Positions 2,136 through 24,678 of a stretch of 37,882 bases of DNA are shown here, in pieces (position 1 is the first letter of the stretch; each line of letters begins with the position of its first letter). The notes below the pieces were generated by a model that saw nothing but the letters and a program-made list of their open reading frames with translations, was not told the DNA's origin and ran no database searches. Source of the DNA: Clostridiales bacterium (GTDB lineage: Bacteria > Bacillota > Clostridia > Peptostreptococcales > NVVX01). Position numbers and translations under genes: made by a program. Location of the stretch: positions 22,222-60,103 of the forward strand of contig JAJOKP010000052.1 in assembly GCA_021129775.1 (NCBI GenBank). The letters run 5' to 3'.

Positions 2136-2969
2136 ATGGATAAAAAAAGATTTCATGTAAAATTTTGGGGTGTTCGAGGCTCAAGTGCAACTTCAATTGA
2201 GAGAAATAGTAAATATGGAAGTAACACTTCTTGTGTTGAAGTACAAATTAATAATCAATTAATAATCCTTGATGCAGGAACTGGCATTTATCCTTTGGGA
2301 GAAAAAATCTACTTGCGCAATAACCCAACTATTGGACACGTTTTTATTTCTCACTCGCATTATGATCATATACAAGGCTTGCCCTTCTTTGCTCCACTTT
2401 ATTGTGCTGATAATACTTTTTACTTATATGGCGAGCAAAAACAAAGTACTTGTTTTCAAGATATTATCTCTAATTATATGATGAAACCATATTTTCCCGT
2501 CCCATGGAATGCCTTCAGGGCTAAAACTATAGTGCTTGATATTGTTCCAAAACAGGTAATCAGGATTGACGAAAATATTAGCATCTCTTCCATTAGAGTC
2601 AATCATCCAGGAGGAAATCTAGCTTTTCGTATTAACGCTAACGGAAAAACTTGTTGCTATCTTACCGACATAGAACATAGAGAGGATTTCAGTAATGAAC
2701 TTATTAACTTCGCACGTAACGCAGATATTGTTATTTATGATGCTAGTTTAACCACCGAAGAATACTCGCAACCAAAATATATTGGATGGGGACATTCTAC
2801 TTGGTCTGTGGCTACCAAATTCGCAAATGATGCAAATATTAAAAAACTCGTTTTATTTCATCATGCCATTAATAAAAATGACGATGAAATTTTAGACATG
2901 CAAAACCAAGCACGTACTGTCTTTCCAAATACTATTGCTGCCTATGAAGGGTTGGAGATTTCGCTATGA
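2136..2969 (+). CDS. Metallo-beta-lactamase-fold hydrolase (COG1235-like)
   Basis: A 277-residue cytosolic protein. The start at 2136 sits 10 bp after the upstream stop, behind a weak GGTGA site; the longer open frame from 2007 overlaps the previous gene and is not used. The metal motif HxHxDH is visible at 73-78 (HSHYDH), followed by a His in NHPGG, an Asp in YLTD and a late His pair (FHHAI), as expected for a two-metal site. The opening FWGVRGS and LDAGTG strands match the branch that contains PhnP and class II cyclic phosphodiesterase-like enzymes. It lies between an HD-GYP protein and an adenylate cyclase, and its stop overlaps the cyclase start by 4 bp (ATGA). A role in cyclic nucleotide hydrolysis is therefore attractive, but this is inference; other phosphodiester substrates are possible. 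Confidence 0.82.
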   Translation: MDKKRFHVKFWGVRGSSATSIERNSKYGSNTSCVEVQINNQLIILDAGTGIYPLGEKIYLRNNPTIGHVFISHSHYDHIQGLPFFAPLYCADNTFYLYGEQKQSTCFQDIISNYMMKPYFPVPWNAFRAKTIVLDIVPKQVIRIDENISISSIRVNHPGGNLAFRINANGKTCCYLTDIEHREDFSNELINFARNADIVIYDASLTTEEYSQPKYIGWGHSTWSVATKFANDANIKKLVLFHHAINKNDDEILDMQNQARTVFPNTIAAYEGLEISL

Positions 2970-5011
2970 ACTTGCTAAAAAATACAAACAGACCTCTTTG
3001 TTTATTAATCATTTTCGTCTTGCTCCTTTGCTCCATTTTTCGTTCAACTTATTTTTTTAGTTATGCGAATCCAGAAAATAATCTAGAGAAAATGAAATCA
3101 CAACTCACAGACGTCTCTGGATCTAGAAAAGTCGATTTGTTAAACGGAATATCTAGGTTGCAACTTATCACTTCACCTGACAAAAGTCTTCTATATGCCA
3201 ATGATGCCCTTAATCTTTCCCAATCATTGCAATACAAATTAGGAATTATCAGTTCATACAACAATTTAGGCATGGCGCATTATTTTTTGCTAAATTACTC
3301 AAAGGCAATTGATTATTTTAATAATTCTATTCTTGAGAATTCAGACCACCGTTACAAAATAGAATTAGGCTATTCACTCAATGGGCTTGGTTTGACTTAT
3401 CAAGCCAAAGATGAAATAGGAAAAGCAATGACTTTTTATAAAAAGGCTCTCAATTCTTATACTGATGCTAACTATCAAAAAGGTATAGCAAATACACTAA
3501 ATAATATTGGCACCGTGAATAGTCACTTTTTACAATTTGATATCGCCTTAGAAAACTATTATGACGCATTATCAATATATAAAGCTATAGAGTATAAAGA
3601 TGGAATTGGCACTACATATAACAACATTGCAGTGGTTTATGAAAATTTGGGTAATAGCAAGGTATCTATTGATTATTACTTAAAAGCTATAAATATCTTT
3701 ACTGAGATTAATAATAGAGAAAGAATTGCAATTTTATTTAATAACATTGGTCTTGTTTTTGTATCACAAGAACTTTACGATGAGGGATTAGATTTTTTTC
3801 GTCAATCCATTCTACTAAGCACTGAGATTGCCAATGAATCTGAAATTGCCTCTAGCTACAATAATATAGGTGTCTTGTCAAATTTACTAGGCGATTATCA
3901 AGATGCATTAGCAAACCATTACAAAGCTCTTGAAATAAGAAAGAGAATAGACGATAAAGATGGAATTATTAATTCCTATGTTAATATTGGAACAGTTTAC
4001 TTCAACAGCAACAAATTAGATAAGTCTTTGGAATATTTTGATAATGCCCTAAACGCAGCAAGAGAAATTAGTGACAAAGAGGGTCTGCAATCTGCTTTAT
4101 TTAATCTCTCTAAGGTACATAGCGAGCTTGGAAATTATAAGGAAGCATACTCATTTAAATCACTATACAGCACTCTATCAAAAATGATTGCTGACGAGAC
4201 GTATTTAAAAAACATTGCAGAAATGCAAGAAATATTTGAAGCCGAAAGAAAAGCACGACAAATTCAACTTTTAACCAAAGATAATGAAATATCCTTAGTT
4301 TTACTAAACCAACAAAGGATTATTATTCTTTCTCTCGCATTGATTGTACTACTCGCCCTTATCCTAGGATTTATAATCGTCAAAGAAAAGAAAAAATCAG
4401 ACAAATTACTACATAATGTCCTTCCTAAAAAAGTGGCAAGAGAGTTAAAGAAAAAAGGTAAGTCGAAACCAGAAAATTTTCAAAATGTTACTGTTTTTTT
4501 CTCTGATATAGTCGAATTTACCAGTATATCCTCCAAACTCAGCCCTCAATACTTAATTAACGAATTAAATGATATGTTTACAACTTTTGATAGTATTATG
4601 ACTAAGCATAATTGCGAGAGAATTAAAACAATTGGGGATGCTTACCTTGCGGTTTGCGGTCTTCCTATTAAAAACGAGAAACACGCCGAAAATATTACAA
4701 ATGCAGCAATTGAAATAATGTCTTACATGAATACTCGAAATCTTACCGCAAAAACCAAATGGGAGATTAGGGTTGGTATTCATTCAGGAGAAGCGGTGGG
4801 CGGAATTGTTGGAACCAAGAAGTACATATACGACATCTTTGGCGATGCTATAAACACCTCTCAGCGAATGGAAAGTAATAGTGAGCCTATGAAGATCAAT
4901 TTGTCAGAAACGTCATACACCATGCTTAAAGACAAGTATGGTTTTATGAAAAGAGAACCTCTCTATATAAAAGGCAAGGGTCTTGTTAATATGTATTTTC
5001 TTGATTGCTAG
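2966..5011 (+). CDS. Membrane TPR protein with class III adenylate cyclase domain
   Basis: A 681-residue membrane protein predicted to make cAMP. Hydrophobic segments lie at about 11-29 and 453-472, so residues 30-450 are probably outside the cell and the cyclase inside. The outer part holds eight tetratricopeptide-like repeats with an exact 40-residue period (an NNIG-like motif near 99, 139, 179, 219, 259, 299, 339 and 379), then a charged helical stretch at 410-445. The cyclase domain starts near 505. The metal aspartates are D514 (FSDIVEFT) and D558 (IGDAY). K554 and D623 are the residue types that select adenine over guanine, and N630 and R634 fit the catalytic pair. The catalytic set therefore looks complete. 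It is translationally coupled to the upstream hydrolase. The TPR region probably senses a protein or peptide ligand; this is inference. Confidence 0.9.
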   Translation: MNLLKNTNRPLCLLIIFVLLLCSIFRSTYFFSYANPENNLEKMKSQLTDVSGSRKVDLLNGISRLQLITSPDKSLLYANDALNLSQSLQYKLGIISSYNNLGMAHYFLLNYSKAIDYFNNSILENSDHRYKIELGYSLNGLGLTYQAKDEIGKAMTFYKKALNSYTDANYQKGIANTLNNIGTVNSHFLQFDIALENYYDALSIYKAIEYKDGIGTTYNNIAVVYENLGNSKVSIDYYLKAINIFTEINNRERIAILFNNIGLVFVSQELYDEGLDFFRQSILLSTEIANESEIASSYNNIGVLSNLLGDYQDALANHYKALEIRKRIDDKDGIINSYVNIGTVYFNSNKLDKSLEYFDNALNAAREISDKEGLQSALFNLSKVHSELGNYKEAYSFKSLYSTLSKMIADETYLKNIAEMQEIFEAERKARQIQLLTKDNEISLVLLNQQRIIILSLALIVLLALILGFIIVKEKKKSDKLLHNVLPKKVARELKKKGKSKPENFQNVTVFFSDIVEFTSISSKLSPQYLINELNDMFTTFDSIMTKHNCERIKTIGDAYLAVCGLPIKNEKHAENITNAAIEIMSYMNTRNLTAKTKWEIRVGIHSGEAVGGIVGTKKYIYDIFGDAINTSQRMESNSEPMKINLSETSYTMLKDKYGFMKREPLYIKGKGLVNMYFLDC

Positions 5012-12001: not shown

Positions 12002-12048
12002 TAGTTTAGAACATTGCGTTTGAAGTAATTTTACTACAGGAGGTTATT

Positions 12049-15000
12049 ATGCCATCTCAATTAGAAACTCTAAGCCAGGAAATACTTTTGCAATTGCTTA
12101 CTTTAGAATCAAAAAAAACTATACAGATAGGTTCTCAACTAATTAGAAAACACATTAAGAACGAAAAAACTTCTGACACTGTTAATTCAATTCTTGCAGA
12201 TAACAATTATAGTTGTTCTATCGTATATACATTATGTGAAGATCTTTTACGTGAACTTTGGGGAAATTCCGCACCTAAAAAACCTCTTTATTACATGTAC
12301 CAATATTCGCTAAAAAAGTCTTTTCCTAGTTCTGTTGAAGTTGAACTAGATGCACAACTAAATGAGGGGTGCGAAATCTACTTGCATGTCCTTAGAATAG
12401 TTAGCGAATGGCAAAAAAAATCTAACGATAATACTTTACAAAGTAAATATCCAATACTTTTGCTCTCTTCTGAGGACGAAAAAAAATATCAAATAACTAG
12501 CGAATACGCAAAATTCACTTCTGCTTTTAATAATGATTTCCTGTATGAAATGATGAAATTAAATCAAGAGATTATAGGACATAATACACTAGACCATATC
12601 TGCGCTGTCCACTATATGTCGATTTTCATTGCTAAACAGCTTTCTGATTCTGGACTTCCAGTAGATTTGGGCAGAGTTTCAGGCGGTGCTGCAGGGCACG
12701 ATCTTGGAAAATACGGTTGTAGAACTTGGGAAAGCAACAGGGTTGCATATCTACACTACTTTTATACTGATTTATGGTTCAAAAAACATCATATTACATA
12801 CATAGGACATATAGCATTAAACCATTCCGTTTGGGATTTAGAATTGGACAACCTTTCAATAGAATCTCTTATTTTGATTTATTGTGATTTTAGGGTCAAA
12901 AATGTGAGAAATAATAAAATGCAAATATTTACGCTTGCAGATTCTTTTCAGGTCATTCTAGATAAGCTAGATAATGTCGACAAGAAGAAAGAGCTCCGTT
13001 ATATTAAAGTATATAATAAATTAAAAGACTATGAAGATTTCATGCTTGATATTGGTGTGGTAACAGATATTGATTTAAAGCCAGCACACTCTTTCGATAA
13101 AACCCCAAAATACTATTCACTTATGAAAGGAGCTGAAATTACCAAAAACCTAAAATATCTTGCCATTAGCCATAATGTCTACTTAATGAATAAGTTTAGA
13201 AATCGTTCATCTTTAAATGATATATTGGAAACAGCAAGGAGCGAAAAAAATTCAAAGGTACTTAGAGAATATTTAGATGTTTTTCAAGAATACTCTACTC
13301 ACTTTACTCCTGCTCAAAAAACAATCATTATAAATTTTCTCTACGATAATTTGATCCATCCAGAAGAAGACGTGAGAAGACAATGTGCAGAGCTAGTTGG
13401 AAAACTTATTGCTACTTTCGACGAAGACTACCGAAAAGAAATACCTAAAGATATGGCAATAATTAATAATATTGAAAGCAGTTCTGAGTTGCTAGACAAA
13501 TACCTCTATCTATTTATCACGCCTGATCATAAAATAATACCCACCCATAGAAATTGGATAGGGCATAGCATGAAAATTATGATTGCTTCACTTTTCTCAC
13601 ATTGCGAAAAACATCGCATAAAGCAGTATATTGATATTATTCTTAAGTATTACAATGAAGATGTTTTCCCTAAAACTGATATTAATCTATACCTTTTGGA
13701 TACTATTAAGTACATTCCTTTTGCTGAGCGATCATATTCTGTTAACGTTTTTTTTGATTACATCTTCCAAAGCCTTGACAGCTTCGAAATTCCATTAAAA
13801 ATTAGCGCTTTAGAGGAAATATATCACTTGATTGGATATGTTAAGGAGGGCTCTGCCATTTATAATAAAATTGTTTCTATTATAAAACATGTGTCTGATT
13901 CCGAATACTCACCAGTAAAAAATTATTTAAAAATTAAAATTGCACAGAGAATGTTTGATGAGAATCATCCAATCAACAAAAAATTAGATTTGCTCTATCA
14001 ACAAGATATGCTAAACAAATCTTCTCTTTTTTTGAGTAATCTAAAAAGCAACACAGACTGGATTGCGAAAAAAATACAGGTCGATATATTGTTAGATTAT
14101 TACCTCAAACACAATGAGACCGATGGACTGCACACTGCAATTCATTTTTGTAATCTCCTAAAAGTTAGCGCGCTCGAAAACGTGCGCAATAGAACTGGTA
14201 GAGCTTTAGTCAAAATAATACCAAATTTGCCTGTTGAGCAAAGAAATGATGTTGCCATAGAACTGTTAAGCTCACTAGAGATAGAAGGTTATCGTTTTGC
14301 GAAGTATATTCCCAATTATTTGGGACAAATCTTAGTATATTTACATCCTGTAGAACTTGATGAATTAATCAGTGATTTAATTGATAAATGCAAGTCTTCA
14401 AATATTCAAACGCTTTCTTTACTGCTTAAAACAATTGGGGTGTTTATCCCTAGCTATCCAAAATACAAAAAATTGTTCCTTGAAAAAGGCACTAAGTACC
14501 AAGACCGACTTAGTAGAATGCTAGGCGTTTTACTAAACGCTCTAGTGCACGACAATGTTCAAATTAGACAAATCGCTTTTAGTGTTATTGGTAAGGATGT
14601 TTTCGCATCCGCAACACTTTCGCCCGACGAAAAGTGTAATATTTATCAGTTAACTGCTAAAAAAATTCTTACACTGTTAACTGACGATAATGAAAACGAA
14701 CTTCTGTTTTTAACTAATTCAGCAAGCTTAAATCAAATATACAGATTTATTTCTGATTATTCCTTTGATAAGGGAGATATTAATCTTAAAATACCGTCCA
14801 AAATTGCTTTATTCCCTGGCACTTTTGATCCTTTTACCCTGTGCCACAAAAAAATAAGTACTGCCATCAGAGATTTTGGATTCGAAGTATTTATAGCTGT
14901 TGACGAATTTTCTTGGTCAAAACGCACCCAACCAAATACAATTAGAAAAAATATAATTAAAATGTCTATCGCAAATGAAATGGGTATTTTTCACTATCCT

Positions 15001-16935
15001 GAAGATTTTCCTACAAACATAGCTAATCCGTCTGACTTAAAACAACTTAAAGATAATTTTAAGGGTTCGTTGGTATATATTGTTGCAGGTAGTGATGTTG
15101 TACTAAATGCATCCGCATACAAAAAAGCAAAAAATGAATTCTCTATACACACATTTCCACATGTTATTTTTGACAGGCACGAAACAGGTTTCACCCCAAA
15201 TTATGAATCGCAATTGTCAAATTCTTTTAAAAAAATTAATGCTCCCATTTTAAGACTTAACCTCGCACCTCAGTTTGAGGAAATCAGTTCAACACAAATC
15301 AGAAAATATATTGACGAAGAAAGAGATATATCACAACTAATTGACCCTCTCGCACAAAGATACATTTATATCAATAATTTGTACAAAAAAGAACCACAAT
15401 ATAAAACGACACCTCACGCTATTTCAGTTGATATTGAAGTAATTGTTGAATATAGTGAAGAACTTACTTGCACCCTTGTAGATACGTTTCACCAACAATC
15501 ACAGGACGCCTATAATAAACTAAAGAGTTTTTTCAACAAGAGGCATGCAACAATAATAATAGTGAAAGATATTGCAGACAACAGAATTTTGGCTTATTCT
15601 TCTCTATATTGGGTTCCATATGACATGATTTATAGAACTTTTAAAGATATAGATACAAGCGATAGTATTAGGAGAAACAGTGTTGGGCGAATAGTTGCTT
15701 TAAGCGGCATTTTTTCGCTTAGTAATCCTTTGTTTGAAAATTCTTTGCAAGCTATAGTTACCGAGACTTTGTCATATTGCCTAAAAAATGATTATAGCTA
15801 TGCTGTATTCAATAGCCATATCCCTATGAAAGATGAGTCCGAACTGGTGGAATTGCTAACTCTCCACGGATTTCAAGAGCCTTATCAATCACAAAATATT
15901 AAATACAAAACCATGGTAGTTGAAATGAGCAATCCATGTACACTTAACCTTGATTTATCTACAATTATTAAGGAACCTTTCAATAATGACCCCGAAATTC
16001 GGGCTGTCATTAAGGCTAGTAGAAAAAAATTGCAAAATTCTCTTGCTAATTTGTTTCCTGGAAAATTGGTTTTGTCTTTCGATCGAAACGCTGTTGATGA
16101 TATCGTTGTAAAAAAAATATGTCGCCTTAATAATGTTCCGTACACCCCCTCAATACCAAGGGAAGCTGGCAACCTTATGTGTGTTCCCTATGGGAATATA
16201 TTACACAGAAAAATGGTGCCTAATACTATAACAAAAACATTGCATACCGAGAAAATGTTTGCTCCTGATATTAAAAGTTTTAGAATCGAAGCTCATCCAT
16301 ATTATTTGAGCTTGAAAAATCAGGTGCGCATGATTAAATCTTTTGACAGATCTATAATTCTTGTTGACGACCTAATGCACAAAGGATACCGTATGAAGGC
16401 TCTTTACCCTCTATTAGAATCTGAAAAAGTTAATGTAACAAAAGTTATATCGGGGATAATGTCTGGTCGGGGAAAGGAATTAATGGAAATTCAAAGCCGC
16501 GAGGTTGACTGTGCCTATTTCATTCCTAGACTAAAGTTATGGTTTAGCGAGCAGCTATTATATCCATTTATTGGTGGAGACGTTCTATGGAGGGGTGTTT
16601 ATCCAAATAAAAACTTGCTTCCCTCTATTAATTTAATACTGCCATATGACTCAGCACAATTTATTAAGGGAGCCTCGCCTGAAAGTATTTATAATCTATC
16701 TTTAACATCTTTAGAGAATTCTATTTCACTGTTAAAAATCATAGAACGAAGATACCAAAAGATTAATGAGCGTGTTCTGACTATATCGTCGCTTAGTGAA
16801 GTGTTTTTATTCCCTCGTTGTCCTGACCCAGGCAAGAACATGAGCTTTGATATGCATTTGAGCGCTTCTAATTATGTAGAAAACGACCTAGAGTTACTTA
16901 AAAGACTACAATATAGAGTCACTACTATAGACTAA
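12049..16935 (+). CDS. Giant multidomain protein: HD, helical repeats, NadD-like nucleotidyltransferase, GNAT-like and PRTase-like regions
   Basis: A 1628-residue cytosolic protein without signal peptide or membrane segments, starting at an ATG with an AGGAGG site. Residues about 175-290 form an HD domain: H183, H217-D218 (GHDLGK), H254/H259 and D280. Residues about 380-900 look like an all-helical, HEAT-like array. Residues 917-1112 match the NadD/cytidylyltransferase fold, with FPGTFDPFTLCH (922-933) and the closing motif ISSTQIR (1079-1085). The usual (H/T)xGH is here TLCH, with Cys for Gly. Residues about 1160-1285 resemble a GNAT acetyltransferase, ending in LHGFQ. Residues about 1300-1510 resemble a type I phosphoribosyltransferase, with IILVDDLMHKG at 1436-1446; its usual TG is changed. 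NadD beside an HD hydrolase (YqeK) is a known pairing; this architecture I do not recognise. Function unknown; NAD or nucleotide chemistry is inferred. Confidence 0.75.
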   Translation: MPSQLETLSQEILLQLLTLESKKTIQIGSQLIRKHIKNEKTSDTVNSILADNNYSCSIVYTLCEDLLRELWGNSAPKKPLYYMYQYSLKKSFPSSVEVELDAQLNEGCEIYLHVLRIVSEWQKKSNDNTLQSKYPILLLSSEDEKKYQITSEYAKFTSAFNNDFLYEMMKLNQEIIGHNTLDHICAVHYMSIFIAKQLSDSGLPVDLGRVSGGAAGHDLGKYGCRTWESNRVAYLHYFYTDLWFKKHHITYIGHIALNHSVWDLELDNLSIESLILIYCDFRVKNVRNNKMQIFTLADSFQVILDKLDNVDKKKELRYIKVYNKLKDYEDFMLDIGVVTDIDLKPAHSFDKTPKYYSLMKGAEITKNLKYLAISHNVYLMNKFRNRSSLNDILETARSEKNSKVLREYLDVFQEYSTHFTPAQKTIIINFLYDNLIHPEEDVRRQCAELVGKLIATFDEDYRKEIPKDMAIINNIESSSELLDKYLYLFITPDHKIIPTHRNWIGHSMKIMIASLFSHCEKHRIKQYIDIILKYYNEDVFPKTDINLYLLDTIKYIPFAERSYSVNVFFDYIFQSLDSFEIPLKISALEEIYHLIGYVKEGSAIYNKIVSIIKHVSDSEYSPVKNYLKIKIAQRMFDENHPINKKLDLLYQQDMLNKSSLFLSNLKSNTDWIAKKIQVDILLDYYLKHNETDGLHTAIHFCNLLKVSALENVRNRTGRALVKIIPNLPVEQRNDVAIELLSSLEIEGYRFAKYIPNYLGQILVYLHPVELDELISDLIDKCKSSNIQTLSLLLKTIGVFIPSYPKYKKLFLEKGTKYQDRLSRMLGVLLNALVHDNVQIRQIAFSVIGKDVFASATLSPDEKCNIYQLTAKKILTLLTDDNENELLFLTNSASLNQIYRFISDYSFDKGDINLKIPSKIALFPGTFDPFTLCHKKISTAIRDFGFEVFIAVDEFSWSKRTQPNTIRKNIIKMSIANEMGIFHYPEDFPTNIANPSDLKQLKDNFKGSLVYIVAGSDVVLNASAYKKAKNEFSIHTFPHVIFDRHETGFTPNYESQLSNSFKKINAPILRLNLAPQFEEISSTQIRKYIDEERDISQLIDPLAQRYIYINNLYKKEPQYKTTPHAISVDIEVIVEYSEELTCTLVDTFHQQSQDAYNKLKSFFNKRHATIIIVKDIADNRILAYSSLYWVPYDMIYRTFKDIDTSDSIRRNSVGRIVALSGIFSLSNPLFENSLQAIVTETLSYCLKNDYSYAVFNSHIPMKDESELVELLTLHGFQEPYQSQNIKYKTMVVEMSNPCTLNLDLSTIIKEPFNNDPEIRAVIKASRKKLQNSLANLFPGKLVLSFDRNAVDDIVVKKICRLNNVPYTPSIPREAGNLMCVPYGNILHRKMVPNTITKTLHTEKMFAPDIKSFRIEAHPYYLSLKNQVRMIKSFDRSIILVDDLMHKGYRMKALYPLLESEKVNVTKVISGIMSGRGKELMEIQSREVDCAYFIPRLKLWFSEQLLYPFIGGDVLWRGVYPNKNLLPSINLILPYDSAQFIKGASPESIYNLSLTSLENSISLLKIIERRYQKINERVLTISSLSEVFLFPRCPDPGKNMSFDMHLSASNYVENDLELLKRLQYRVTTID

Positions 16936-16950
16936 AAGGAGATTCCCCTT

Positions 16951-18240
16951 ATGCATTATTACAAATTAAATAATAAAGTGCTTTTTTCATTGAAACCATA
17001 TACTCTTGACAATGAAATTACAGAAGATATTGCCAAGAAAAAACGTGATGTTCTTTACTTCCTTAGAAAATTCAATCCTAAATTTTCCAGAAATTCTTTT
17101 TCAATAAGCCAGCCGTCGCAGTTATATTTGAAAAATGAAGATTTAAATCTGCTAAGAAAAGATGATGCGTACAAAGAGCTTGTCCCTTACTGGATAATTA
17201 GAAAAATAGAAAACAGAGAAGTTGTTTCGGTCAATACAAACTACTCTGATTGGCAAAAATCAATAATTGACCGAGATTTTAAAAAATGCCTTCTGGTCAA
17301 TCCCTGCTCCAAACCAAGGCTTAAAGTCAACGATAAATTCTCTATAAACATTTGCGGTTTAGGCGATGTAGGTGGCACTCTCTTAACTTCGCTGCGTCTT
17401 GTCGGAGGAGATTGTATTAGCAAAATTGGTATTTACGATACCGACTTAAACAAAGTACAGCGATACGAATATGAAACCAACCAAATTTTCATTAAAAATA
17501 AGAACTTCCCTGATGTTGTTCCTGTTTCAACTTATAAAATATTTGATTGTGATATGTTTGTCTTCTGTGTCGCATCTCAAGTACCACCTATTGGCAGCGA
17601 AAAACATGATGTGCGCATGGTTCAGTTAGATGCCAACTCCAAAATTTTAAGCATCTATGCAAAACTTGCCCGCTCAAGTAACTTTAAAGGCATTTTTGCT
17701 GTCATTTCTGACCCAGTGGATTTATTATGTAAGTCTGCTTTAATTTCGAGTAATACTAATAAAATGGGCGTGTATGATTTCAAGGGATTATTGCCTGAAC
17801 AAATAAGAGGATATGGACTCGGTGTTATGAATGCTAGAGCCAATTATTTCGCAATGCAAAACGTAGAAACTAAACACTATCAAAATGAAGGCAGAGCATT
17901 TGGTCCGCATGGTAATGGACTAGTTATAGCTGATAGTATCAATAACTACAACAAACGACTGTCACAAGAGCTAACGAAGAAGACACTCGCTGCAAATCTG
18001 CAAGTCAGAAAAACTGGTTATAAACCATACATTGCCCCAGCCATTTCTTCAGCAGCCTTACCTATAGTTGAGACTTTAAGAGGAAACTGGCATTACAGTG
18101 CTACTTTTGTAGGAGGTGTTTACATGGGAGCAAGAAATAGGCTAAATAATACAGAAATTGAAATAGAAACTTTAGATATACCATCTGCATTAGTTATAGA
18201 GCTTGAAAAAACGTACAAAATGTTAGGTGGTATGTTATGA
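16951..18240 (+). CDS. Lactate/malate dehydrogenase-like protein with an N-terminal extension
   Basis: A 429-residue cytosolic protein. Residues about 131-260 are a Rossmann fold like that of lactate and malate dehydrogenases: ICGLGDVGG (134-142) is the dinucleotide loop, an acidic residue ends the second strand (YDTD), and ISDPVDLL (252-259) corresponds to the family's NPVD stretch. A later AFGPHGNG aligns with the catalytic-His segment GEHGDS. The first 130 residues are an extension not found in the standard enzymes, and the active-site arginines cannot be placed by eye, so the substrate is unknown. The ATG follows an AAAAGGAG site 15 bp after the giant gene, and the stop overlaps the next start. 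It probably binds NAD(P) and acts in the same pathway as its two neighbours. Confidence 0.72.
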   Translation: MHYYKLNNKVLFSLKPYTLDNEITEDIAKKKRDVLYFLRKFNPKFSRNSFSISQPSQLYLKNEDLNLLRKDDAYKELVPYWIIRKIENREVVSVNTNYSDWQKSIIDRDFKKCLLVNPCSKPRLKVNDKFSINICGLGDVGGTLLTSLRLVGGDCISKIGIYDTDLNKVQRYEYETNQIFIKNKNFPDVVPVSTYKIFDCDMFVFCVASQVPPIGSEKHDVRMVQLDANSKILSIYAKLARSSNFKGIFAVISDPVDLLCKSALISSNTNKMGVYDFKGLLPEQIRGYGLGVMNARANYFAMQNVETKHYQNEGRAFGPHGNGLVIADSINNYNKRLSQELTKKTLAANLQVRKTGYKPYIAPAISSAALPIVETLRGNWHYSATFVGGVYMGARNRLNNTEIEIETLDIPSALVIELEKTYKMLGGML

Positions 18241-19331
18241 TTTATTTAATTAAGTCTACTAATCCATCAAAGCAGCTGAATAGAATGATTGCATATGCGA
18301 TGCAAAATCGAAGCTACATCGAAATAAATAGCAATACTGAAGCTCCTAACTTACGACATAAGAAAATACTATTTGCAATTGAATTAGACGAAATAGGAAT
18401 AGATTTTTCTATGTTAAAAATAATGAAAAAGCTCAATTGCAACACTTTTTCGTCTATATCTCCTTTACACGGCTCTGTAGCTGGAATTCTAATTCATAGC
18501 AAAAATGAACTATATACTAAGAGTTTTTGCTCTCAAATTATTTTTTTAGCTAATAGTTTAGGCTGTAGATTTATAGGTCACCCCATGGTAGAAGCAACAG
18601 GAGACCTGACTAATTTTCTCACTTGGCAAAAAAGATATGATATTTCTCTTGCTGATATTTGTTATAAAATTTCAACAAAACTTGGCGAAAGATTGAATGC
18701 GTTTCTCGAAACAAACCAGTGTGCCGACAAAGAGATGTTTAGTTTATCACCTCATAAAGCCCCAAAAAAGGGACCTTCAATACTTGCATTACATGCTAGT
18801 AATCGGGATACTTCTAATACTCTTACGCTATGGAATATGGTAAAAAAACATCTATCCAATTATGAAATAGAAGAACTTCACGTGGAAAACGGTACAATAT
18901 ATGACTGTAACGGATGTCCATTTAAAGTCTGTCTTCACTATAGCAAGCAAGAAGGCTGTTTTTACTGTGGTAAAATTACTACCGAAGTGTTTCCAGCAAT
19001 TGAAAAGGCAGATATTGTTATATGGATATGCCCAAACTATAATGATTCTGTTTCTGCTAATTTAATGAGTGTCGTTAACAGATTAACCGCTTTGTATAAA
19101 AAAATTAGTCTCTACGATAAATCAATTTTTGCAATAATTGTGTCTGGTAATTCTGGCAGCGATTCTGTAGCAAAACAACTTATTAGTGCGTTAAATATCA
19201 ACAAAGGATTTCAACTGCCCCCCAACTTTGCACTAATGGAAACTGCTAATGATTTTGGTGCGATACTAAGGATTAAAAATGTTGAAGATAGGGCAAAGCA
19301 ATTTGCAGAAAATATTCAAAGAAAATTGTAA
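18237..19331 (+). CDS. Flavodoxin-like NAD(P)H-dependent FMN reductase family protein
   Basis: A 364-residue soluble protein, coupled to the previous gene by a 4-bp ATGA overlap. The C-terminal half (about 180-364) is a flavodoxin-like fold: the strand SILALHASNRDTSNT carries the FMN phosphate-binding loop, YDCNGCPFKVCLHYSKQEGC is a Cys-rich stretch like that of the iron-sulfur flavoprotein/FMN reductase branch, and DIVIWICPNYNDSVSANL is the usual second flavin loop. The N-terminal half also looks like a worn flavodoxin-type domain (KNELYTKSFCSQIIFLANSLGC), which suggests an internal duplication with one degenerate copy. It probably passes electrons from NAD(P)H to a partner. Its stop abuts the stop of the convergent gene at 19332 with no space for a terminator. 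Confidence 0.75.
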   Translation: MIYLIKSTNPSKQLNRMIAYAMQNRSYIEINSNTEAPNLRHKKILFAIELDEIGIDFSMLKIMKKLNCNTFSSISPLHGSVAGILIHSKNELYTKSFCSQIIFLANSLGCRFIGHPMVEATGDLTNFLTWQKRYDISLADICYKISTKLGERLNAFLETNQCADKEMFSLSPHKAPKKGPSILALHASNRDTSNTLTLWNMVKKHLSNYEIEELHVENGTIYDCNGCPFKVCLHYSKQEGCFYCGKITTEVFPAIEKADIVIWICPNYNDSVSANLMSVVNRLTALYKKISLYDKSIFAIIVSGNSGSDSVAKQLISALNINKGFQLPPNFALMETANDFGAILRIKNVEDRAKQFAENIQRKL

Positions 19332-20777
19332 TTATTTAGATGCGCTAGTACCAGCCACATACCCTGAAGACCATGCCCATTGCAAATTAAATCCTCCACA
19401 GTCTCCATCAATATCTAAAATTTCTCCTGCAAAGAATAATCCCTTAACTAATTTTGATTCCATTGTAAACGGATTAATATCTTTTACATCTATTCCACCT
19501 GCTGTTACCTGTGCACTTTTCCACGGCTGTGTTCCTATCACTTCAAATCTCCATTGTTTTAATATCTTCACAATACTATTTATTTGGCTATCCTTTATTT
19601 TTCTTGAAATCATGTTAATGTTTTTAATCTTTGCCTCTTTTAATATTACGGGTATAAGTCTTTTATTAATCAACCCCACAAAATTACAATCTAAAGGCTT
19701 ATTTTCTTGAAATGCTATACGTTTCATTATTAATTTTTCCATATCCAAATTACTCAAATCAGGAAATAAGTCTAACTCAACCCAAGGCTGTTTGTTCTTT
19801 TGCAGCTGCTCTCCTGCTTTCCTACTTAATTGCAAAATTGGCGGTCCTGAAATTCCATAATCAGTAAACAAAATTTCTCCTTCATCTGCTCTAAGAATTT
19901 GATCATCTACTCCAATAGAAGCCTTCCCCTTAAACTTAACGCCCTTAATTTGTTTTACGAATCTTTCTTTAAAATTAAGCTGTACTATTACAGGAAAGGG
20001 TAATATTGTTTTATGCCCAAAAGTTTTTGCTAAACTGTATCCGCTCCCATTTGAGCCTAGGTTGGGACTAGCTTTCCCTCCTGTTGATAAGATGATTTTA
20101 GCTGCTCTAATTACAAAATGACAAAGAGACGCTTCCACTCTTTCCCTGTTGTTACCCTGAGCCCGCTCGACTCGCGAAGTGCGCTCAGGGTAACCTCCAC
20201 GGACTGAAGTCGTACGAGTCTCGCATGACAAAAGAAACGCCCCCTTGTCATGCTTACTATGCAATTTGCGTGTAATCTTTGTTACTGCAACATTACATCT
20301 TTCTTCAACGTTTAATCTCTCCATTTCATACCTCAACACATCTAGAACACTAGTTGCTTGTTCAGATTTAGGAAAAATTTTACCTAAGTCTTCAACTTGA
20401 TGTGCTATTCCTAACCTTTCAAAAAAATCAAGTGTCTTTTCTAAATCAAACTTTTCTAGAGCATTTTCAGCAAACTTCACGTTTTCCCCATAAAAACGAG
20501 TAATATCTAAATTCAAGTTAGAAAAATTACAACGCCCATTTCCCGTTGCTAAAATCTTTTTTCCAACTCTATTTAATCTCTCTATTACCACTACTTTAGC
20601 ACCTTCACGTGCTGCAAAGATAGCCGCTACTAAGCCTGAAGCTCCTCCACCAACAACTGCGACGTCGTATTTGCTTTCAAATAGTGAAGGGATACTACTT
20701 TTTTCGAATTGATCCGAAATGGCCGAATGTGGCAAACAAAACGTCCCCTTGCCACATTCTAGAATTTGTTCTTTCAT
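19332..20777 (-). CDS. HI0933/YhiN-family FAD-dependent oxidoreductase with two translated repeat insertions
   Basis: A 481-residue flavoprotein of the HI0933 (BaiN/YhiN) family. The FAD-binding motif YDVAVVGGGASGLVAAIFAA begins at residue 37, followed by GKKILATGNGRCNFSN (72-87), ILSTGGKASPNLGSNGSGY (229-247) and the C-terminal VTAGGIDVKDINPFTMESK and GLFFAGEILDIDGDCGGFNLQWAWSSG, all diagnostic. Reaction in this organism unknown. Typical members start within a few residues of the FAD motif and are near 400-420 long. Here about 36 residues precede it and about 45 (174-218) interrupt the middle. Both extra stretches coincide with the palindromic elements at 20725-20759 and 20151-20252, and the frame is kept. 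The ATG at 20777 has an AAGGAGG site with 8-base spacing. Confidence 0.88.
   Translation of the reverse strand: MKEQILECGKGTFCLPHSAISDQFEKSSIPSLFESKYDVAVVGGGASGLVAAIFAAREGAKVVVIERLNRVGKKILATGNGRCNFSNLNLDITRFYGENVKFAENALEKFDLEKTLDFFERLGIAHQVEDLGKIFPKSEQATSVLDVLRYEMERLNVEERCNVAVTKITRKLHSKHDKGAFLLSCETRTTSVRGGYPERTSRVERAQGNNRERVEASLCHFVIRAAKIILSTGGKASPNLGSNGSGYSLAKTFGHKTILPFPVIVQLNFKERFVKQIKGVKFKGKASIGVDDQILRADEGEILFTDYGISGPPILQLSRKAGEQLQKNKQPWVELDLFPDLSNLDMEKLIMKRIAFQENKPLDCNFVGLINKRLIPVILKEAKIKNINMISRKIKDSQINSIVKILKQWRFEVIGTQPWKSAQVTAGGIDVKDINPFTMESKLVKGLFFAGEILDIDGDCGGFNLQWAWSSGYVAGTSASK
20151..20252. repeat. Compound palindromic repeat inside the HI0933-family gene
   Basis: Two palindromes lie close together. 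One has 12-bp perfect arms (20151-20162 with 20183-20194, reading GTTACCCTGAGC and its complement). The other spans 20224-20252 with 8-bp arms (CATGACAA and TTGTCATG) round a loop that on the minus strand reads GGGGGCGTTTCTT. A degenerate copy of one half, ATGACAAAGAGACGC, sits at about 20118-20132. The region is translated as about 45 residues not expected in this protein family. Confidence 0.78.
20725..20759. repeat. Palindromic repeat at the 5' end of the HI0933-family gene
   Basis: Perfect 11-bp arms (20725-20735 and 20749-20759, GAATGTGGCAA and its complement) flank a 13-base loop that on the minus strand reads GGGGACGTTTTGT. It begins about 19 bp after the start codon and is translated as ECGKGTFCLPHS. 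The loop core is shared with the elements in pyrK and at 20224-20252. Confidence 0.8.
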
Positions 20778-22558: not shown

Positions 22559-24385
22559 TTACTCCACAGTAACACTCTTTGCAAGATTCTTGGGCTTATC
22601 AATATCACAACCTCTTGCTACGGCAATGTAATAGGCTAATAGTTGTAGTGGAATCACAGATAATATTGGTGTCAATTCGTTAATCGTTTCTGGGATATAC
22701 AGTACTTTATCTGCAGTTTTTTCAATTTCAATTTGATTCTCTTTTGCAATTGCTATGACATATGCTCCTCTTGCTTTTACTTCTTTAATGTTTGATAACA
22801 TTTTTTCATAAAGATGCTCTTGAGTTGCAACTGCAATAATAAGTATTCCTTCTTCAATTAATGCTATCGTGCCATGCTTTAATTCTCCTGCTGCTATAGC
22901 TTCTGAGTGGATATATGATATTTCTTTTAGTTTTAGAGAGCCTTCTCTTCCTACATAATCATCAATGCCTCTTCCCATATAAAATACACTTTGATTGTTG
23001 AATTGCTTATCTGCAAGTTCTTGTATAGGGGACACATTATTGAGAATTTTTTCTGCCTTGTCTGGAAATTCTCTAAGCTCTTTTATTACGCTCTTATATT
23101 TTCCCTTGGATAACGTCCCTCTTTTTAACCCTAAATCTAAGGCAATTAAATACATCGAAACTAATTGCGTTATATATGCCTTAGTAGATGCAACTGCTAT
23201 TTCGGGACCTGCCCAAGTGTAGAATACGTCTTCTGCCTCTCTTGAAATTCTACTTCCCACAACATTTGTAACCGCTATTATTTTAGCGTCTCTTCTTTTA
23301 GCTTCTCTTAGAGCAGCTAGCGTATCTGCTGTTTCACCAGATTGGCTAACAGCAATGAACAATGTGTTTTTGTCAATAAAAGGGTCTCTATATCTAAACT
23401 CAGACGCAACATCTGTTTCTACAGGAATCTTTGCAAATTTCTCAATTGCATATTTGCCAACTAATCCTGCGTGATATGCAGTTCCGCAAGCTACAATGAC
23501 AATTTTATTAATTTCTTTTAAATCATCTTTTGTAAGATTGATTTCATTTAAATCTATATTGCCCTCATTATCTATTCTCGGAGACAATGTTTCTTTTATA
23601 GCATTTGGTTGTTCGTAAATTTCTTTAAGCATAAAATGCTGATATCCGCCTTTTTCAGCCGCTTTCACATCCCAAGTGACATTAAAAACTTCTTTTTTCA
23701 CTTCTCCCCCAAATTCATTTAAAATTTTGATGTCATCTTGAGTAAGAATAGCTATATCTCCATCGTCTAAGAAATAAACATCTCTAGTATGCTTTAAGAG
23801 TGCTGGTATATCCGAAGCCACAAAATTTTCTCCTTTTCCAACACCTACAATCAGTGGACTATCTTTTCTTACTGCCACTAGCTGATTAGGATTGCTTTTG
23901 CTAATTACAGCAATCGCATATGCTCCCTCAAGTTTTGCGACTGATTTCTGCACTGCTAAAACTAAGTCTCCTTCAAAATAATAGTCAATTAAATGTGCAA
24001 TTACTTCTGTATCCGTTTCGGATTTAAATACCTTTCCTTCTTCTATCAACCACTCTTTGAGCTTCATATAATTTTCTATAATCCCATTGTGAATTACTGC
24101 AATATTACCTGCAGTATTTTCATGCGGATGCGCATTAACATCATTCGGTTCTCCATGAGTAGCCCACCTTGTATGACCAATTCCTAATGTCCCGCTGATT
24201 TTTTTTACGCTTAAGTTCTCTTCTAGTACACTCAGTCTTCCTTTATTTTTTCTTACCGTAACTTTACCATCTTGGCAAACCGCCACTCCTGCTGAATCAT
24301 AACCTCTATATTCTAATTTGCTTAATCCTTCGAGTAAAATTGGTACAACTTCCTTTTTGCCAATATATCCAACTATGCCACACAT
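22559..24385 (-). CDS. glmS: Glutamine--fructose-6-phosphate aminotransferase (isomerizing)
   Basis: Makes glucosamine-6-phosphate from fructose-6-phosphate and glutamine, the entry step to UDP-GlcNAc and the cell wall. The protein begins MCGIVGYIG, so that after Met removal Cys is the N-terminal nucleophile of the glutaminase domain (about 1-230; TRWATHGEPNDVNAHPH is typical). Two sugar isomerase (SIS) domains follow, with ACGTAYHAGLVGKY and AVSQSGETADT, and the ending DKPKNLAKSVTVE is characteristic. Length 608 residues, as usual. The ATG at 24385 with an AGAGGAG site is the start; a longer open frame to 24409 only adds residues upstream of the essential Cys. Expression is controlled by the ribozyme upstream. 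Confidence 0.97.
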   Translation of the reverse strand: MCGIVGYIGKKEVVPILLEGLSKLEYRGYDSAGVAVCQDGKVTVRKNKGRLSVLEENLSVKKISGTLGIGHTRWATHGEPNDVNAHPHENTAGNIAVIHNGIIENYMKLKEWLIEEGKVFKSETDTEVIAHLIDYYFEGDLVLAVQKSVAKLEGAYAIAVISKSNPNQLVAVRKDSPLIVGVGKGENFVASDIPALLKHTRDVYFLDDGDIAILTQDDIKILNEFGGEVKKEVFNVTWDVKAAEKGGYQHFMLKEIYEQPNAIKETLSPRIDNEGNIDLNEINLTKDDLKEINKIVIVACGTAYHAGLVGKYAIEKFAKIPVETDVASEFRYRDPFIDKNTLFIAVSQSGETADTLAALREAKRRDAKIIAVTNVVGSRISREAEDVFYTWAGPEIAVASTKAYITQLVSMYLIALDLGLKRGTLSKGKYKSVIKELREFPDKAEKILNNVSPIQELADKQFNNQSVFYMGRGIDDYVGREGSLKLKEISYIHSEAIAAGELKHGTIALIEEGILIIAVATQEHLYEKMLSNIKEVKARGAYVIAIAKENQIEIEKTADKVLYIPETINELTPILSVIPLQLLAYYIAVARGCDIDKPKNLAKSVTVE

Positions 24386-24427
24386 ATTATTATCTCCTCT
24401 CAAAGTCATAATTAAAAAACACGTAAG

Positions 24428-24600
24428 AAAGCTAGCCTGCAGTACTTTTCACTGCAAACTTTCACTTAAATCCTTTTGTCCCATCAATTACTTGATAGTT
24501 TTGTAGATTTTTATCGGTGGTGAAACACCGCAAGGCATCCGCCGAATATTCGATAACCTTGTTCCTCGTCAAGTTAAGCTCTACTTAACTTCAGGCGCTT
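24428..24600 (-). promoter_or_regulatory. glmS: glmS ribozyme (glucosamine-6-phosphate-responsive riboswitch)
   Basis: The minus-strand leader of glmS carries the conserved ribozyme: AAGCGCCUGAA with the cleavage site between 24599 (A) and 24598 (G), a hairpin AAGUUAAG/CUUAACUU, then UUGACGAGG, UUAUCGA, UUCGGCGGAUGCC and a 9-bp P4 stem (24434-24460). Glucosamine-6-phosphate acts as the catalytic cofactor; self-cleavage exposes the mRNA to decay, so glmS is turned down by its product. The 3' boundary is approximate. This fills most of the 24386-24768 gap. Confidence 0.93.
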
Positions 24601-24678
24601 TAAAAATACTATTTTGTTTTCATACCTTCTTCCTTTTGCTCACAACAAAAATAAGCATCACCTACTCTCTTATTTCCC

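Follow-up and report, generated by a model that had tools for sequence, protein, structure and literature searches.

A conserved three-gene cassette of anaerobic Firmicutes encoding a NadD-like multidomain fusion protein, a dehydrogenase homologue and a flavoprotein

Introduction

The closest described relatives of the system considered here join a NadD-type nucleotidyltransferase, of nicotinamide adenine dinucleotide (NAD) synthesis, to the HD-type hydrolase YqeK. The latter is reportedly a diadenosine tetraphosphate (Ap4A) hydrolase, an activity that the JCVI-Syn3A paper attributes to work of 2020 by Minazzato et al. (J Bacteriol 202:e00053-20). In JCVI-Syn3A, a NadD-type enzyme and an HD diphosphatase form a single fusion (JCVISYN3A_0380), and their pairing was shown to serve proofreading (PMC9426524). 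The nicotinate, nicotinamide and quinolinate phosphoribosyltransferases (PRTases) belong to type II of their class (PMC4442680). Here, a 37,882-nucleotide stretch of contig JAJOKP010000052.1 from a Clostridiales bacterium (GCA_021129775.1), hereafter the window, was analyzed for a cassette of three genes: gene 1, encoding a 1628-residue protein with NadD-like, HD, GNAT-like and PRTase-like regions; gene 2, encoding a protein of the lactate/malate dehydrogenase (LDH/MDH) superfamily; and gene 3, encoding an FMN_red flavoprotein.

Results

The first-pass annotation of this DNA had described the genes as an operon with a 15-base pair (bp) gap between genes 1 and 2 and a 4-bp overlap between genes 2 and 3, and this was borne out by the open reading frame (ORF) calls (Table 1). 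The spacing in relatives was alike, with median gaps of 12 and -4 bp and an exact 4-bp overlap in 29 of the 55 intact loci. Searches of 60 order-level genomes with gene 1 gave matches in 42 (E <= 0.001), some of them to NadD only, such that ∼34 represent real relatives. All strong gene 2 matches in these genomes (34 places, E of 3.3e-47 or better) lay directly downstream of gene 1, and strong gene 3 matches came after gene 2.

Analysis of 65 gene 1 loci revealed all three genes in 55, genes 1 and 2 in two and gene 1 only in eight; since a contig end truncates one of the last group (L101), seven are true solos. The neighborhood survey that had been proposed with the annotation thus upheld the linkage at 55 loci and broke it at seven, where gene 1 has other neighbors and six of the copies are second ones. 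The outer neighbors of the cassette differed between families, and no fourth gene was common across loci. Distance matrices of the three proteins gave Mantel r values of 0.75-0.87 (51 loci), with 0 of 999 permutations as high; as species phylogeny is still included in this correlation, it shows co-inheritance and not contact. Purifying selection was observed in all gene 1 domains, the strongest being in the nucleotidyltransferase and the C terminus as judged by the ratio of nonsynonymous to synonymous substitution rates (dN/dS), and the active-site residues of the three proteins were nearly invariant across 54-62 sequences. The three genes are therefore a real and old cassette that is inherited as a unit.

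Gene 1 was present in 24 of 291 genomes sampled from the class and 8 of 399 from the phylum, some outside the class. The relatives that had been suspected in other Clostridia were thus found, and the cassette reaches far beyond the genus. A single-sequence scan of genome contigs gave one locus, and the viral contigs scanned gave no match. Acetoanaerobium noterae (NZ_CP154629) is a named carrier, which makes culture work possible; the record NZ_CP154629.1 is filed as a plasmid of this species, yet is 2.6 Mb long and chromosome-like. At two loci from related genomes (L094:7921-13233 and L096:10746-15943), genes for an ammonium transporter (AmtB) and a split glutamate synthase lie between genes 1 and 2, as identified by Pfam in the former and by eye in the latter. 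Because these are absent elsewhere, they were counted as local inserts and rejected as cassette members.

The domain calls originally made for the 1628-residue fusion held. Residues 917-1115 can be assigned with certainty, by profile, as a NadD-like nucleotidyltransferase (Pfam, 7.5e-5; NCBIfam TIGR00482, 3.5e-11; Protein Data Bank (PDB) profile, 1.1e-8; hhalign, 98.7%). The ISSTxIR motif reported as intact is present as ISSTQIR in the window, and ISSTxxR is nearly invariant in the family. The (H/T)xGH motif noted as altered does read TLCH in the window, and most family members have T/S-L-(G/S)-H; given that its final His is kept in 61 of 62 copies, however, the alteration does not alone indicate a dead site, and the nucleotidyltransferases of the cassettes appear to bear no sign of one. 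Where NadD has a TW motif, most gene 1 copies read N-A-S-A-Y. The TIGR00482 cut-off for NadD (112.45 bits) was not reached either by the window domain (43.5 bits) or by cassette copies (∼28-60 bits).

The two regions that follow were recognized by hhalign, for which control comparisons with wrong families gave <=3.5%. The GNAT-like region matched nearly the whole GNAT profile at 75% (wrong families, <=1.6%), and a PDB profile search with it was empty. The acetyl-CoA pyrophosphate loop, (R/Q)xxGx(G/A), is absent from this region, the aligned stretch being NSLQAIVTE; an active acetyltransferase was rejected. The region is mostly missing in three distant copies and is under the weakest selection of the enzyme-like domains (dN/dS). 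The PRTase-like region matched type I PRTases at 63%, with PF00156 detected in 12 of 32 members (best 8.2e-5) and a weak PDB profile match (0.034). Its phosphoribosyl pyrophosphate (PRPP) motif, ILVDDL, is type I-like, with the acidic pair present in most copies and KGYR in place of TGxT. No type II PRTase was listed in the single-protein family scans, with no type II profile compared directly. A pyridine-type PRTase was rejected given the type I-like motif (PMC4442680), and the earlier argument, which linked PRTases to NadD through a shared part in making pyridine nucleotides, is not transferable to this protein. AlphaFold gave no usable model of residues 1116-1628 from a two-row alignment (predicted local distance difference test score (pLDDT), 35.5).

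These data bear on a back-up NAD pathway, in which the nucleotidyltransferase would form nicotinate adenine dinucleotide or NAD from nicotinate or nicotinamide mononucleotide, the HD domain would proofread and the redox enzymes would be ordinary users. NadD is by far the closest family, and the NadD-YqeK fusion provides a precedent; against this stand the type I-like PRTase domain, unlike those of pyridine metabolism, the N-A-S-A-Y replacement and scores well under the family cut-off. Moreover, canonical NadD scored over the curated cut-off in 57 of 60 genomes, including that of the window (G000 at C11:35105). Such a pathway is thus quite unlikely, and the cell's own NAD synthesis was rejected as the role of the cassette. 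The coexistence of canonical NadD in nearly all genomes implies that the gene 1 domain is a paralogue with another job. Of the proposal that the operon serves an NAD-like or other nucleotide cofactor, the linkage and the domains stand, whereas ordinary NAD synthesis falls away, and the product probably differs from ordinary NAD. Separately, most of the genomes have YqeK, although the genus of the window (G000-G002, with G001 97% complete) has canonical NadD and no YqeK over the curated cut-off.

The HD domain is called with certainty from six conserved predicted metal ligands: H183, H217, D218, H236 and D280 in 61 of 61 copies and H259 in 60 of 61. It thus carries the H...HD...D ligands of the superfamily, and the six-ligand set is consistent with a two-metal HD hydrolase. 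PF01966 matched 20 of 31 family members (best 1.2e-4), but not the window protein by itself, and the PDB profile match was weak (0.011). Similarity to YqeK was confined to 42 columns around the H/HD motif (hhalign, 12%) and did not extend over the whole domain. The NadD and YqeK pairing invoked by the annotation therefore has its precedent in JCVI-Syn3A (PMC9426524), but the HD domain here is YqeK-like at that motif only.

The intervening residues 376-905 form, with moderate confidence, a modeled ARM/HEAT-type solenoid. AlphaFold predicted ∼28 helices (mean pLDDT, 65; predicted template modeling score, 0.50), the best PDB matches of this model in Foldseek were ARM/HEAT-type solenoids, and Pfam gave one weak HEAT match on the window protein (6e-4). 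Invariant residues of the solenoid include K674, H699, K705 and E738. Alpha-solenoids often bind macromolecules, and the top Foldseek matches include RNA-associated solenoids such as SF3b (fold class only). An RNA- or tRNA-directed enzyme could thus be envisaged, in which RNA bound by the solenoid would have its ends or bases processed by the nucleotidyltransferase and HD domains. By contrast, partners such as a dehydrogenase and a flavoprotein suit chemistry on small molecules, the substrates of NadD-type enzymes are mononucleotides and family scans of the proteins revealed no RNA-binding domain. An RNA substrate is consequently very improbable.

The calls of gene 2 as malate/lactate dehydrogenase-like (PDB profile, 1.3e-11) and gene 3 as FMN reductase-like were both sustained. 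Conservation over 57 sequences marked R222, D254, M293, R296 and H320 in gene 2, and by alignment R222, R296 and H320 correspond to Arg109, Arg171 and His195 of LDH. In LDH, Asp168 is the partner of the catalytic His195. Gene 2 has Met at this position (M293) in 57 of 57 sequences and Asp in place of Asn140 (D254) in 57 of 57, while His320 is kept in 56 of 57. The Asp168-His195 dyad of L-LDH/MDH is thus lacking, and the catalytic acid may have moved. Gene 3 matched PF03358 (FMN_red) at 5.1e-22, with 78.5 bits against a cut-off of 24, placing it in this family. Its Cys residues 224, 227, 232 and 241 were invariant in 54 of 54 sequences and plausibly form a putative iron-sulfur (Fe-S) site. The N-terminal domain (residues 1-165) gave no match, a PDB profile search with gene 3 was empty at E <= 0.001 and an internal duplication was rejected, as none was found.

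The seven solo copies (L039, L047, L053, L055, L100, L109 and L237) were compared with the cassettes. Six share a genome with another gene 1 copy (G012, G025, G034, G035, G208 and G250); in G250 the other copy is followed by the beginning of gene 2, where the contig stops, and the remaining five genomes hold the cassette. The nucleotidyltransferase site was altered in 4 of 7 solos versus 2 of 58 cassette copies (Fisher p 0.0007, relatedness not corrected). Among the solos, the HD domain was changed at one residue in one copy and the PRTase site in none. One of the two altered cassette copies (L050:6175-9983, on a draft contig of G031) is a decaying cassette with H933N and D1016N in the nucleotidyltransferase, H320N in the dehydrogenase, gene 3 gone and the PRTase site intact. 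The simplest reading is that the nucleotidyltransferase, gene 2 and gene 3 would serve one series of steps, while the HD and PRTase-like domains would form a core with its own use that is also kept without the redox pair. Given the small numbers and the draft contig of L050, this module split is a hypothesis with support.

A kinase of the APH family (1.6e-18) adjoins four of the seven solos (L039, L055, L100 and L109), at three places on the tree. Its 10 carriers among the 60 order genomes all possess gene 1 (hypergeometric p 0.002, relatedness not removed), and in 8 of these 10 it lies away from gene 1. This alternative partner and the patchy spread over class and phylum would suit a gene cluster that synthesizes a nucleoside-like secondary metabolite or signal, with the redox pair tailoring a hydroxy-acid part and the kinase phosphorylating in the alternative cassette. 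Co-inheritance nevertheless looks vertical and loci share no fourth gene, and we consider such a cluster unlikely. In one family (G006, G028, G038 and G055), the kinase adjoins a 443-residue gene that is glutamate dehydrogenase-like by eye. A panB-like gene, also assigned by eye, lies near the second gene 1 copy at L039:2-670 and L053:4837-5667; both loci belong to one family, this may be shared synteny only, and the gene was rejected as a partner.

The altered sites also raise the question of whether the large protein is a regulator, in which the PRTase-like and GNAT-like domains, and perhaps the nucleotidyltransferase, would sense PRPP or nucleotides on the solenoid and control the redox enzymes by contact, such that catalysis would be required of the HD domain only. 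The lost acetyl-CoA loop, the altered PRPP loop, the large solenoid with its invariant residues and the altered nucleotidyltransferase site of several second copies are in keeping with this. However, sensing alone seldom requires catalytic residues that are near-invariant across very diverged sequences, as those of the nucleotidyltransferase and HD domains are. A regulatory role is therefore doubtful, if far from negligible.

The features are collected in Table 1. Immediately after gene 3, a convergent gene on the - strand starts at 19332. Elsewhere in the window, the gene at 2966-5011 (+) encodes a 681-residue protein that combines TPR repeats with a class III adenylate/guanylate cyclase domain (Pfam, 2.9e-54), and a glmS riboswitch/ribozyme (109 bits) at 24458-24610 (-) precedes a glmS-type gene (22559-24409). 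No known anti-phage defense model of PADLOC matched the three proteins at E <= 0.01, and a known defense system was rejected on this basis.

Table 1. Features of the cassette (window positions) and of the kinase found beside solo copies (locus positions)
Feature	Position	Strand	Basis or remark
Ribosome-binding site of gene 1	12038..12043	+	AGGAGG, read from sequence, ahead of first ATG
Gene 1	12049..16935	+	ORF, 1628-residue multidomain protein; full-length relatives in order, class and phylum
Gene 1 N-terminal region, residues 1-140	12049..12468	+	No family match; dN/dS 0.14-0.19
HD phosphohydrolase-type domain, residues 141-375	12469..13173	+	Family alignment; PF01966 in 20/31 members; residue conservation
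Alpha-helical ARM/HEAT-type solenoid (predicted), residues 376-905	13174..14763	+	Pfam HEAT 6e-4; AlphaFold model; Foldseek
NadD-like nucleotidyltransferase, residues 917-1115	14797..15393	+	Motifs FPGTFDPFTLCH, GSD, EISSTQIR; TIGR00482, PDB profile, hhalign
GNAT-like domain, residues 1119-1290	15403..15918	+	hhalign 75%; no acetyl-CoA loop by alignment
Type I PRTase-like domain, residues 1300-1500	15946..16548	+	K1396, H1399, ILVDDLMHKGYR; PF00156 in 12/32 members; hhalign 63%
Gene 1 C-terminal region, residues 1501-1628	16549..16932	+	Conserved, no family match; dN/dS 0.02-0.04
Gene 2	16951..18240	+	ORF, 429 residues, LDH/MDH-superfamily protein with N-terminal extension
Gene 3	18237..19331	+	ORF, 364 residues, FMN_red flavoprotein
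APH/fructosamine-kinase-like protein, ∼308 residues	L039:5048-5971; L100:12414-13340; L109:4020-4946; L055:5089-6003		PIGNHELxRHLVYRV motif

Discussion

The architecture, conservation, linkage and co-loss observed here are tentatively read as those of a nucleotide-processing and redox cassette, in which a module of nucleotidyltransferase, dehydrogenase and flavoprotein, set on a core of HD and PRTase-like domains, would make or use an NAD-like nucleotide; we put the probability of this at roughly 35%. The PRTase-like domain would make or hold a 5'-phosphoribosyl compound, onto which the NadD-like domain would move AMP from ATP to yield an NAD-like dinucleotide. The HD domain would cleave phosphate-linked product that is wrong or in excess, a task that YqeK performs for NadD, and the dehydrogenase and flavoprotein would perform redox steps that build or use the dinucleotide.

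Several points weigh against this proposal. The substrate and activity of the cassette are predictions from sequence, and the GNAT-like and PRTase-like folds are assigned by profile comparison. PRTase catalysis is uncertain given the KGYR loop, and a scored residue of this domain differs in 7 of the 58 cassette copies. There are few solo copies, some of them related to one another, and the HD domain, which remains intact in copies with a changed nucleotidyltransferase, is not only the proofreader of that domain. In addition, Rfam searches of the window and 13 homologous loci revealed no riboswitch common to the cassettes and thus no hint of a ligand.

Since no known pathway with this set was found in the open-licence literature, the cassette may make an undiscovered cofactor. 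In a more specific form, which we regard as rather doubtful though worth stating, the PRTase-like and nucleotidyltransferase domains would assemble an undescribed dinucleotide-type cofactor other than NAD, the HD domain would police it, and the dehydrogenase, with its rearranged active site, and the dedicated flavoprotein would use it; a second version of the system would have the kinase in place of the redox pair. Whatever the product, the cassette occurs in anaerobic Firmicutes of several families and classes and is under purifying selection, which implies a function that its hosts need. From the joint loss of the nucleotidyltransferase, gene 2 and gene 3 follows the testable hypothesis that all three act on one molecule. 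No description of this domain set was found in the open-licence full-text literature, a search that leaves subscription papers and preprints outside its scope. On this limited search, the folds are known and the three-gene system appears to be new.

Each part of the cassette comes from a known superfamily, and the nucleotidyltransferase, HD domain and dehydrogenase fall outside their nearest characterized families. Gene 2 resembles the L-lactate/malate dehydrogenases (PF00056, TIGR01771) in its GxGxxG-type Rossmann motif and Arg/Arg/His counterparts, and differs in its N-terminal extension, the changed dyad and a score of 29 bits, where the cut-off is 303.55. Gene 3 shares the flavodoxin-like FMN_red domain of NADPH-dependent FMN reductases and Fe-S flavoproteins (PF03358), but has a C-x2-C-x4-C-x8-C motif and an unmatched 165-residue N-terminal domain. 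Relative to the type I PRTases (PF00156), the gene 1 domain retains the position of the PRPP motif, the acidic pair and a K/H/E loop before the motif, whereas Lys-Gly-Tyr-Arg replaces Thr-Gly-x-Thr and the score is below the Pfam cut-off. The partner of four solos in other genomes belongs with the APH/fructosamine-kinase superfamily (PF01636); it scores 47.8 bits against a cut-off of 205 for APH(3') and is not in the cassette of the window.

The closest parallel is the NadD-YqeK fusion or pair, given that gene 1 likewise carries a NadD-type nucleotidyltransferase and an HD hydrolase in a single polypeptide. In gene 1, by contrast, ∼540 residues of predicted solenoid separate the two, and GNAT-like and PRTase-like regions are added. 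Its nucleotidyltransferase is far under the NadD cut-off, its HD domain is YqeK-like only at the metal motif, and the genomes that carry gene 1 also hold a stand-alone NadD and usually YqeK.

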